This document shows, in pieces, positions 47,997 to 50,947 of a stretch of 54,848 nucleotides of DNA. Position numbers and translations under genes: made by a program. The notes beneath the pieces were generated by a model. It was not told the origin of the DNA, did no database searches, and saw only the letters and a program-made list of their open reading frames with translations. Position 1 is the first letter of the stretch, and each line of letters starts with the position of its first letter. The DNA is from Candidatus Fermentithermobacillaceae bacterium (lineage in GTDB: Bacteria > Bacillota > Sulfobacillia > Fermentithermobacillales > Fermentithermobacillaceae), in contig DUUV01000099.1 of assembly GCA_012841375.1 (NCBI GenBank), positions 1 through 54,848 on the forward strand, given 5' to 3'.

Positions 47997-48944
47997 ATGA
48001 AGACAGTTGACATATATCAGGTGGATGCTTTCACCGATGTGGTGTTCGGGGGGAACCCTGCCGGGGTGGTGCCCGACGCCACAGGGCTATCTGAGGAGAC
48101 AATGCAGAAGGTCGCCCGGGAGATGGCTTTGTCGGAGACGGCGTTCATCATTGACACCCGGGGGAAAGGGCCTGCCGATTTTGACGTCCGCTTCTTCACT
48201 CCCCTTGCCGAGGTGGACCTCTGCGGGCATGCCACCATCGGCTCCTTCTGGCTGCTCGCGGAGCTGGGGATGATCGGTGAAGGACCTCAGGGTGACGCAG
48301 GCGAGGTGCGGGTCCACCAGCTCACCAAAGCGGGTAGGCTGCCTGTTGACATTTCGTTTGGCTGCGAAGGCGCTCCGTCCCGGATCATGATGACCCAGAA
48401 CCTGCCCGAAGTCGTAGGCCAACCCTCGCGGGAAGAACTACACGAGCTGGAACGCATCCTGGGAGCCCCAGAGGGCTGCATAACTGAATTCGAGAGGGCG
48501 ACACCCCAAGTGGTGTCCACCGGGCTCCCCGACCTCATAGTCCCCGTAACGTCGAGAGAAGCCCTGCTTTCAATGAGGCCGAATATGGCGGCAGTCGCCG
48601 ATTTCTGCGTGCGCCGCGGCATCATCAGCGTGCATTGCCTCACTCTAGAAACGCTTGACCCTGCCTCGACGATCCACTGTCGTGACTTCTCGCCTTCGGT
48701 AGGAGTACCTGAGGAATCGGCAACCGGAACGGCCTCAGGCGCCACGGGTGCGTATCTCGTCCTGAACCGCCTGGTTGAGGTTAAGGAACCCGTCACCAAG
48801 ATAATCTGCGAGCAAGGACACATCCTCAAGCGTCCATCCCTGATTCACGTAGAGGTTGCCTCCAAGGCGGGCGAGATAACCTCTGTGCGTGTGGGCGGCA
48901 GCGCGGTCACGGTGATTAGGGGCTCAATCGCGATAGGAGACTAG
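47997..48944 (+). CDS. PhzF-family isomerase/epimerase
   Basis: PhzF-like protein of 315 residues with two diaminopimelate-epimerase-like halves. The catalytic glutamate lies in LSETAFI; VDLCGHATIGSFWLL and ATGTASGATGAYLVLNR are the conserved glycine-rich motifs of each half. ATG 47997 is preceded by GAGGAGG at 9 bases. Substrates of most PhzF homologs outside phenazine loci are unknown, and no phenazine genes are here. Confidence 0.88.
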   Translation: MKTVDIYQVDAFTDVVFGGNPAGVVPDATGLSEETMQKVAREMALSETAFIIDTRGKGPADFDVRFFTPLAEVDLCGHATIGSFWLLAELGMIGEGPQGDAGEVRVHQLTKAGRLPVDISFGCEGAPSRIMMTQNLPEVVGQPSREELHELERILGAPEGCITEFERATPQVVSTGLPDLIVPVTSREALLSMRPNMAAVADFCVRRGIISVHCLTLETLDPASTIHCRDFSPSVGVPEESATGTASGATGAYLVLNRLVEVKEPVTKIICEQGHILKRPSLIHVEVASKAGEITSVRVGGSAVTVIRGSIAIGD

Positions 48945-49038
48945 CTGGGGCTCAAGTGTCTGCTCCCTAACTCGTAGTCTTGTTCGCGGTTCTGTAGGTC
49001 TGATTCGACACAGTCTGCTGGACTTGCGCTTCGAAAGG

Positions 49039-49075
49039 TGTTACATTGCTATGCGATGGATCGGTTGATGTAACA
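49039..49075. promoter_or_regulatory. Inverted repeat, likely operator of the XRE cassette
   Basis: TGTTACAT (49039-49046) and ATGTAACA (49068-49075) are a perfect 8-bp inverted repeat with a 21-base spacer, ending 31 bases before the XRE gene. It is well placed for repressor binding and self-control. A standard promoter could not be fixed with confidence. Confidence 0.55.
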
Positions 49076-49106
49076 GATGGGCCACCTCGAGTGGAGGGAA
49101 GTACCT

Positions 49107-49445
49107 ATGAGTAAGCCCATGAGTCTGGGTCCCCGGCTGAAGAATGTTCGCTTATCCATAGGCAAGACACAGAGCGACGTGTCTCGCGACACCGGCTTTT
49201 CTCGTGAGATGATTTCCTATTGGGAGACGGGTACACGATTTCCATCGGTTTCGCAGATTGGTGTGCTGGCTGACTACTACGGTGTGGACCTCGGCATGCT
49301 TGTGGATCCCGATGCGCCCGAAATCAAGGTCGCTTTCAGGAATCGGGATATGACAGATCACGACCGCGAGGTGATCTACTGGGCTCGCAAAGTACTATCG
49401 GGCTACTGGGCGATGAACTCCCTGGTACCGGAGAGAAAGCCATGA
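49107..49445 (+). CDS. XRE-family transcriptional regulator
   Basis: Protein of 112 residues from ATG 49107 (GGAGGGAAG upstream). The helix-turn-helix covers about residues 8-62 (LGPRLKNVRLSIGKTQSDVSRDTGFSREMISYWETGTRFPS), Cro/C1 type, followed by LADYYGVDLGMLV and a short C-terminal helical part. Its stop overlaps the next start (ATGA). With an ImmA/IrrE partner next door it likely acts as a repressor that the protease can inactivate. Confidence 0.88.
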   Translation: MSKPMSLGPRLKNVRLSIGKTQSDVSRDTGFSREMISYWETGTRFPSVSQIGVLADYYGVDLGMLVDPDAPEIKVAFRNRDMTDHDREVIYWARKVLSGYWAMNSLVPERKP

Positions 49446-50209
49446 CATCCAGGTTACCCCCCCACCGTGCACTTGAAGCTGCTGCCGGAATCAGAGGAGT
49501 CTTGGTTCAAAAGGGTCTCCTCAAGGCAATTGGGGCTCCCGTATCTGATGAGGTCTTGGAAGAACTACTCCGTCAAGAGAAAATACTGCTCGCCCGAGTT
49601 GCTCTCTCGGATAAGGTTTCGGCCGTGTACATGAGGAGTGATCCTTACGCCCTCATCCTGCTCAACTGCACAAGCACAGTGGGCCACCAGCGGTTTTCAC
49701 TTGTTCATGAACTGTGTCATCACTTCCTGCATACAGAACTGAACACCTGGGCATGCCCGGTAGCTGTGCAGGGAGCTCGGGGACATGAGAGGGAGGCAAA
49801 CCAATTTGCGGCGGCGTTTCTGCTGCCCGCGCGCAGCGTGTGCGATGATTTCTTCCGGCTCATGGATGAGACGAACGATTTGTGCCGCAGTACAATCGAA
49901 ATATGCGAGCGGTATCGGACCAGCTGGCAGAGCACCGTTGGGCGGCTGCGTGATCTGAGTCTTATAGGAAAACACGAACAAGACGCGCTGCTTGAAAGCA
50001 AGGTTATGGCTCTTGCGCGAAAGTATGAGGTTTCTCTTGACCTTTTCAGGCCAAGCGGGCAGCTACAGATACCAGCTGAGTTCGCAGAACTAGCCAGGGA
50101 TCTTAGAGAAAGGGCGGTCATCTCTGAGCGTAAGTATCAGTCACTGATGGATGATCTAGAGGCCCTAATGGAATGTGGGCACCCAGGAGTGGAGGTATCG
50201 AAGCGGTGA
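49442..50209 (+). CDS. ImmA/IrrE-family metallopeptidase
   Basis: Zinc metallopeptidase of 255 residues with HELCHH (HEXXH) in the segment RFSLVHELCHHFLHTE and a downstream glutamate in EREANQFAAAFLLPA, the typical third ligand. The C-terminal half is helical and cysteine-poor. In ICEBs1 and related systems ImmA cleaves the XRE repressor encoded beside it. The ATG overlaps the XRE stop by 4 bases and its own stop overlaps the next start (GTGA), so three proteins are probably made in fixed ratio. Confidence 0.88.
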   Translation: MTSRLPPHRALEAAAGIRGVLVQKGLLKAIGAPVSDEVLEELLRQEKILLARVALSDKVSAVYMRSDPYALILLNCTSTVGHQRFSLVHELCHHFLHTELNTWACPVAVQGARGHEREANQFAAAFLLPARSVCDDFFRLMDETNDLCRSTIEICERYRTSWQSTVGRLRDLSLIGKHEQDALLESKVMALARKYEVSLDLFRPSGQLQIPAEFAELARDLRERAVISERKYQSLMDDLEALMECGHPGVEVSKR

Positions 50210-50811
50210 GTCGTCTTGTAGACTCCGATGTTTTCGTGGATACCTCTATTCTTGTGACCCTGACTCGCGTTTCGAGGCTTGATCTCCTTTGGAAAACATA
50301 CCCAGGCAGGCCGACTATCCCTGGTCCTCTCCTCCGCCTCGAGATCACGGGGAGTAATCTCAGACTCCCTCTGGGCAAGCGAATCACTAGGAAAAAGACG
50401 AACCCCCTTTGGCTTGATATGGCAAAGAGAGTTACGAAAGCTATTGAGAGTGGATATATAAAGACAGCAGAGCCCACCCACATAGAGGAAACGCTAGCTC
50501 TTACCGTCGCTCAAAAAGGGATGCATCCTGGTGAGGCCATCGTCTACGCAATGGCCTTCAATCGAAACGCGATCTGCTGTTCGTCGGATATGAGGGCCCT
50601 CCTGAAAACGTGTGTGTCAAACCGCGTTCCATTACTAGGGGTCTTTGGCATCGTATACGATTCTCTCGCCGAAAACGTCATTGACGATTCAGAAGCAGAG
50701 TCTCTCTTAGAAGCCATAGTTAGTAGTGAAGAAGACAGATTGCCGAATGTCGGGCTTCCCGAAGTTAAGGATTGGTTTGATAGACAAACAGGCAAACCTC
50801 TTTTTGACTAA
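50206..50811 (+). CDS. PIN-like nuclease domain protein
   Basis: Protein of 201 residues from GTG 50206, which overlaps the stop of the metallopeptidase gene, with GGAGG upstream. The N-terminal VFVDTSILVTL and the later GEAIVYAMAFNRNAICCSSDMRALL resemble the acidic motifs of PIN ribonucleases (D near the start, E of GEA, D of SSD). No VapB-type antitoxin lies beside it; the XRE protein is the only candidate. Parts of the gene are AT-richer than the rest of the window (24 of 60 G+C at 50401-50460). Family assignment is by motif pattern only. Confidence 0.6.
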   Translation: MSRLVDSDVFVDTSILVTLTRVSRLDLLWKTYPGRPTIPGPLLRLEITGSNLRLPLGKRITRKKTNPLWLDMAKRVTKAIESGYIKTAEPTHIEETLALTVAQKGMHPGEAIVYAMAFNRNAICCSSDMRALLKTCVSNRVPLLGVFGIVYDSLAENVIDDSEAESLLEAIVSSEEDRLPNVGLPEVKDWFDRQTGKPLFD

Positions 50812-50947
50812 CCCGCGGACAAGCCTCCCTAACGATTGAGTGGCATAATATCCCCTCAAAAGGATTATCCATCAACAGGGAGAAAGATCCCCTCTCAAGG
50901 AACACGATCGCATTTATGTCGTCTAACCGCCATAAGAGGTGAAGCGA

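Follow-up and report, generated by a model that had tools for sequence, protein, structure and literature searches.

Organization and insertion of the cassette

The window under study is a stretch of 54,848 nucleotides, which holds three genes that follow each other on the same strand:

49107–49445, + strand: XRE/CapH-like repressor gene, 112 aa (HTH_31, 2e-10, Pfam; capH, 4e-5, PADLOC)
49442–50209, + strand: ImmA/IrrE (CapP-like) zinc metallopeptidase gene, 255 aa (Peptidase_M78, 2.4e-13, Pfam; capP, 7.6e-16, PADLOC)
50206–50811, + strand: PIN-domain protein gene with a GTG start, 201 aa, putative RNase toxin/effector (AlphaFold2, Foldseek)

The start of the XRE gene is best put at the ATG at 49107, after a GGAGG, and successive genes share 4-base stop/start overlaps (ATGA at 49442–49445 and GTGA at 50206–50209), exactly as an earlier note on this DNA had described. 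We have compared the cassette with a set of 107 trios, in which one subfamily dominates, the window member is distant from it and some genomes occur twice. As the start-codon heuristic applied to junction overlaps at the other loci gave scattered values and made no call at 27 and 14 of the 107 junctions respectively, the 4-base overlaps are claimed for the window cassette only.

The nearest neighbour genes are of the pyruvate-carboxylase-type, PhzF, pyroglutamyl-peptidase and SLH kinds, and in agreement with the earlier note no integrase is found among them; on the right, the contig and with it the window end after 4 kb. Downstream of ImmA lie the PIN gene and then the pyroglutamyl peptidase, with no CBASS or similar immune operon adjacent. 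The flanks of the trios mix metabolic genes with some defence genes and, in an uncontrolled assessment, give no clear defence-island pattern. The G+C content of the cassette is 52.3%, versus 58.1% for the window, and the GC3 of the PIN gene is 0.50, versus 0.63–0.73 for the neighbour genes. The earlier note had illustrated this difference with two 60-nucleotide counts (24/60 and 40/60 G+C), which are correct as counts but are both picked extremes.

Comparison with three genomes of the same genus indicates that the cassette is an insertion, as in these congeners the PhzF and pyroglutamyl-peptidase genes are adjacent and the cassette is absent. Similarity to them at the DNA level breaks off at about 48,916–48,923 and picks up again at 50,837–50,843, and from these limits the insert comprises the trio with its operator and little else. 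The corresponding features are:

48924–50836, no strand: segment missing from the PhzF–Pcp junction in three same-genus genomes, the inserted cassette
48963–48971, no strand: left copy of the 9-bp direct repeat CTCCCTAAC, near the insert end
50825–50833, no strand: right copy of the 9-bp direct repeat CTCCCTAAC, near the insert end

Around 0.04 direct repeats of this kind are expected by chance, and the pair is suggestive of a target duplication; neither a transposase nor a terminal repeat was found in the insert. Judged from its sequence, the trio looks like a mobile, self-controlled unit.

The peptidase and the repressor

The residues on which the activity and the predicted target of the peptidase would depend are listed below, with their frequencies over the 107 trios:

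49706–49720, + strand: HELCH zinc-binding motif of ImmA (H89, 107/107; E90, 106/107; H93, 107/107)
49754–49756, + strand: C105 of ImmA, predicted cysteine switch (C 102/107, S 5/107), equivalent to C229 of VapB52 (PMC13273310)
49787–49789, + strand: E116 of ImmA, third zinc ligand (107/107)
49335–49340, + strand: F77–R78 of XRE, beyond the HTH domain, where cleavage is predicted (counterpart of the VapB52 'FR motif')

These positions find their counterparts in VapB52, whose residues F75–R76, H216, H220, C229 and E245 match the motif, zinc and switch positions of the cassette; in that protein a cysteine caps the zinc, ssDNA releases the cysteine and the chain self-cleaves (PMC13273310). Indeed, the top match of the ImmA profile among PDB sequences is 9vzy_A, which is VapB52 (5.8e-11), and the best PDB fold for the ImmA model (pLDDT 89.6) is CapP 7t5t, with IrrE/PprI also among the closest. 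From these agreements in motif, sequence and fold, ImmA is very probably an ssDNA-activated kind of protease, even though the identity of the window protein to the relatives sampled does not exceed 28%. It retains a conserved C-terminal tail. The cysteine switch is not universal, since Ser takes the place of the cysteine in five trios (L018, L054, L091, L094 and L097).

In the XRE protein, the arginine of the [FLMY]-R motif is present in 106 of the 107 trios and is preceded by F in 66, L in 38, M in 2 and Y in 1. By analogy with the systems above, XRE is very probably the substrate of the ImmA peptidase.

The third protein is a divergent protein of PIN fold

Pfam holds no family for the third protein, and its assignment comes from structure. 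The AlphaFold2 model, built from a 33-sequence alignment, has a pLDDT of 87.3 and a pTM of 0.86, and when compared with the PDB using Foldseek it yields a listing dominated by PIN/VapC structures, with TM-scores up to 0.71 (by target length), which bears out the PIN-like nature proposed in the earlier note. As far as can be told from the entries, nearly all of the best 50 PDB matches listed are of PIN/VapC type, with exceptions near the bottom; they include Rv0301, the Shigella and Salmonella VapC proteins, PAE2754, Nob1 and VapC4. The acidic residues expected of this fold are present:

50239–50241, + strand: D12, PIN acidic residue (D 106/107)
50341–50343, + strand: E46, PIN acidic residue (E 106/107)
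50533–50535, + strand: E110 (GE motif), PIN acidic residue (E 107/107)
50587–50589, + strand: D128, the fourth acid, shared with ordinary VapC (relatives: N 103/107, D 3/107)

At position 14 the window protein has Ser, versus a second Asp (D14) in 102 of the 107 relatives. It is at most 25–26% identical to the sampled relatives, and as a single-sequence query it matched nothing in the genome contigs, nor in the plasmid and phage collections, from which we regard it as divergent. No DUF4411 match was obtained for the cassette PIN, the VapBC52 database entry being likewise unmatched, and its match to PDC-S70 (PADLOC) is weak (1.8e-4).

A putative operator precedes the trio

Upstream of the XRE gene lies the perfect 8-bp inverted repeat reported in the earlier note, with 21 nt between its arms:

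49039–49046, no strand: putative operator, left half-site TGTTACAT, perfect inverted repeat
49068–49075, no strand: putative operator, right half-site ATGTAACA, whose end is 31 nt ahead of the XRE start

The pattern TGTTACAT-N15..27-ATGTAACA occurs only at this site in the 2.37 Mb genome. Arms of at least 8 with a spacer of 0–30 arise in 5.5% of shuffles of an equal-size stretch, a figure that narrows to 1.25% when the spacer is restricted to 18–26, and so the window repeat by itself is modest evidence; its credibility derives from relatives that have an operator at the same place. In fact, an inverted repeat of at least 7 lies ahead of XRE in 70 of 95 dereplicated loci, versus 25 expected. 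The commonest operator among the relatives is TGTCATA-N26-TATGACA, with both half-sites perfect in 72 of the 107 trio loci, a spacing of 26 in 77 of the 90 loci with at most 3 mismatches, and a right half-site usually 35–41 nt before the XRE start. By eye, it is placed between a -35-like TTGA and a -10-like TATAAT, and a bound repressor would therefore cover the promoter. In the window and its nearer relatives the version is GTTACA-based instead, the window operator departing from the family consensus both in sequence and in spacing.

Searching 399 genomes with the operator pattern gave a single match in each of 22, and 15 of these matches lie directly 5' of XRE-ImmA. No wider XRE regulon was found in this search; with a single copy per genome, mostly ahead of XRE-ImmA, the repressor seems to serve its own operon alone. 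The other 7 matches have no neighbouring trio and are probably chance, since some genomes also yield matches to a control pattern that was reversed. Perfect TGTCATA-N25..27-TATGACA sites with no XRE-ImmA nearby were seen at L121, L125 (at a contig end), L126, L128, L134, L136 and L140.

Conservation of the trio across genomes

Using a profile search, PIN relatives were found in 58 of 399 genomes of the phylum, and most of the fetched loci have ImmA and XRE upstream in the same order. The earlier note had raised the idea of a trio fixed beyond this genome, and this holds in the 80 named loci, where ImmA is directly upstream of PIN in 80/80 and XRE in 79/80, the sole exception being cut by a contig end. 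As these loci were fetched with the PIN profile of a tight subfamily (A8), some of them from genomes already sampled before, the count describes mainly one subfamily. XRE and ImmA are fused in 1 of the 80 and in one locus of the earlier set, the fused form being seen in L064 and L024. Most hosts belong to the Bacillota; Deltaproteobacteria, Lentisphaeria and Cryosericum each appear as the label of one record, and Sphaerochaeta as that of two. The distance matrices of XRE, ImmA and PIN correlate with r between 0.79 and 0.90, the largest shuffled value being 0.30, and on this sequence evidence the three appear to behave as genes moving together do.

With respect to PADLOC, the trios match PDC-M69A in 27 of 29 XRE proteins, PDC-M69B in 31 of 31 ImmA proteins and PDC-S70 in 30 of 33 PIN proteins, with M69C matched in 3 of 33; the window itself matches M69B only (4.3e-11), its XRE and PIN having no M69A or M69C match. 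PDC-M69 and PDC-S70 are computational candidates, the latter described as 'single-gene'. Placing the trio PINs within PDC-S70 was considered and set aside in spite of the 30 matches, since strong PDC-S70 proteins mostly occur without ImmA: in a control on such members it was nearby in 2 of 30 loci, one of which is a trio already counted.

Two side observations were made among these loci. At L002 (1399–3102), in a genome of the same order, a PIN remnant with neither ImmA nor XRE lies next to roughly 18 repeats that resemble a CRISPR array. At L041, L042, L043, L044 and L061, which are differently named Clostridia records, the layout of cassette, operator and downstream ORF is nearly identical, which suggests recent transfer of a longer segment.

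The genome under study holds further cassettes of this kind. A second split XRE-ImmA-PIN cassette lies near cheR/cheB-like genes (L034, contig C151, 2404–4133, - strand). On contig C138 (L039, 548–2181, - strand) a fused XRE-ImmA gene overlaps by 4 bases the DUF4411 PIN gene (3.9e-37) that comes after it, and this is the layout of VapBC52. Another fused XRE-ImmA gene (L037, contig C17, 164–1324, - strand) sits close to a contig end with no partner gene in view. The alignment of the cassette's ImmA profile to the fused C138 protein spans 220 columns and takes in almost all of the peptidase part, C-terminal tail included, and the cassette's PIN profile does not align to the C138 DUF4411 PIN (hhalign probability 0.5); these results suggest that one regulatory module is combined with different PIN subfamilies within one cell.

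Proposed mechanism and alternative explanations

We consider it probable that the cassette is an ssDNA-triggered, protease-gated three-component toxin-antitoxin or defence unit, in which ImmA would cut XRE and by doing so derepress the operon and free the PIN RNase. XRE would sit on the split operator over its own promoter, keeping the whole operon off, and might also bind the PIN protein, whereas ImmA would be produced inactive, its zinc capped by cysteine 105. Single-stranded DNA arising from DNA damage or phage infection would activate ImmA, and a cut at Phe77–Arg78 would split the DNA-binding head of XRE from its C-terminal segment. The repressor would then leave the operator, the operon would be induced, the PIN RNase would be freed or overproduced, and its cutting of RNA would stop growth. 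The idea of the earlier note, that destruction of the repressor by the protease would release the nuclease, agrees with the conserved cleavage-type motif, the cysteine switch and the dedicated operator; the cassette would most likely fire on host DNA damage or phage attack.

How the toxin would be restrained is the point on which the main alternatives differ. It is quite possible, though somewhat short of likely, that XRE and ImmA jointly form an antitoxin that holds PIN inactive, with cleavage destroying the complex and the operator serving only for autoregulation. Indeed, binding by the VapB52 NTD is required to hold VapC52 (PMC13273310), and both the conserved C-terminal tail of ImmA and the near-complete alignment of its profile, tail included, to the peptidase part of the VapB52-type protein of this genome are in line with such a role. 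However, with the genes split, XRE and ImmA are made as two chains, the interface with PIN is purely putative, and the PIN subfamily differs from that of VapC52.

We find it rather unlikely that XRE represses transcription only, in a pure CapHP-type switch where the PIN effector has no protein inhibitor. The matches to the capH and capP models and the dedicated operator would fit, but an uninhibited RNase would be costly at basal expression, and a coupled order with the regulators first and the toxin last is that of a typical toxin-antitoxin operon. A further possibility starts from VapKSC, a three-gene cassette of a DNA-damage sensor, an antitoxin and a VapC that protects against a phage (PMC13373217), and which, unlike the present one, has a kinase and a STAS protein in place of the protease and XRE. 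The cassette could be its protease-gated counterpart, an autonomous anti-phage/DNA-damage suicide module with XRE as repressor on a fixed N26 operator as well as antitoxin, and with a non-Pfam PIN subfamily, usually having Asn for the fourth acid and an extra Asp (D14), whose target is perhaps unlike the tRNA loops cut by VapC52; this full version we likewise consider rather unlikely.

That ImmA is the toxin, XRE its antitoxin and PIN an accessory, as suggested for XRE-COG2856 pairs (PMC2701414, PMC6929052), is very improbable, as this protease family was later shown to cut XRE repressors (PMC10904395, PMC13273310) and PIN is obligate in the trio. Weaker still, to the point of being hardly tenable, is the view that XRE and ImmA are remnants of integrative-element immunity control (ImmR-ImmA of ICEBs1) with the third gene a passenger: the ICEBs1 Xre regulator is the top PDB match of the XRE profile and the cassette is an insertion, but the insert contains only the trio and the fixed trio, with PIN always third across unrelated genomes, contradicts it.

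Relation to known systems and significance

The closest characterised system is VapBC52 (VapB52-VapC52; PDB 9vzy/9vzz), described in 2026 and amounting to a fused version of the cassette, 9vzy being among the entries of that paper (PMC13273310). Both have an XRE head, an FR motif, an M78 peptidase in which the Glu and the switch Cys accompany HExxH, and then a PIN RNase, predicted as such in the cassette. They differ in that VapB52 is one fused chain, whereas XRE and ImmA are two overlapping genes in the cassette, and in that the cassette PIN is not of the VapC52/DUF4411 subfamily, the sole fused-layout PIN found in the genome being DUF4411. Already in 2009 Makarova et al. put forward a system of three components: a PIN or RelE toxin, an XRE repressor by which this toxin would be controlled or neutralised, and COG2856, which would cut the repressor (PMC2701414). 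It shares with the cassette the presence of XRE, COG2856/M78 peptidase and PIN in one operon and the idea of a protease that cuts the repressor; however, the prediction came mostly from XRE-COG2856 fusions and left operator, motif and PIN subfamily undefined. A Geobacillus survey noted unfused XRE-COG2856 genes in one operon with an unknown third gene (PMC6929052).

According to the account cited in PMC13373217, CapH and CapP control adjacent immune operons and CapP is activated by ssDNA; as far as that account goes, they resemble the cassette in having a split XRE and an ssDNA-activated protease (predicted in the cassette, where the capH and capP models match), but they control CBASS and other immune operons, unlike the single PIN gene that is the predicted effector here. 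In Deinococcus, the IrrE/PprI protease is stimulated by ssDNA and cuts the XRE repressor DdrO (PMC10904395), a pair that runs a DNA-repair regulon and not a toxin, whereas the cassette has a single local operator per genome. RosmerTA (RmrA/RmrT) is alike in that RmrA joins XRE and ImmA domains, pieces of which both window proteins match, and unlike in that the cassette genes are split and scanning its PIN with PADLOC gave no RmrT match.

Given the three-component idea of 2009 and VapBC52 as a characterised fused version, the split cassette is not a new category; what appears not to have been characterised before is the split arrangement, together with this PIN subfamily and this operator. What it adds is that the kind of ssDNA-sensing protease and repressor credited with governing CBASS and, in Deinococcus, the repair regulon also comes in a fixed arrangement of separate genes with one PIN nuclease, a pairing that spans many Bacillota and a few other phyla. 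Since repressor, protease and toxin are separate, tests on one gene at a time can tell whether cleavage acts by derepression or by toxin release, something the fused VapB52 precludes. Finally, the N26 operator provides a DNA signature for finding further members, and an orphan PIN family that otherwise weakly matches the 'single-gene' PDC-S70 gains a three-gene context.
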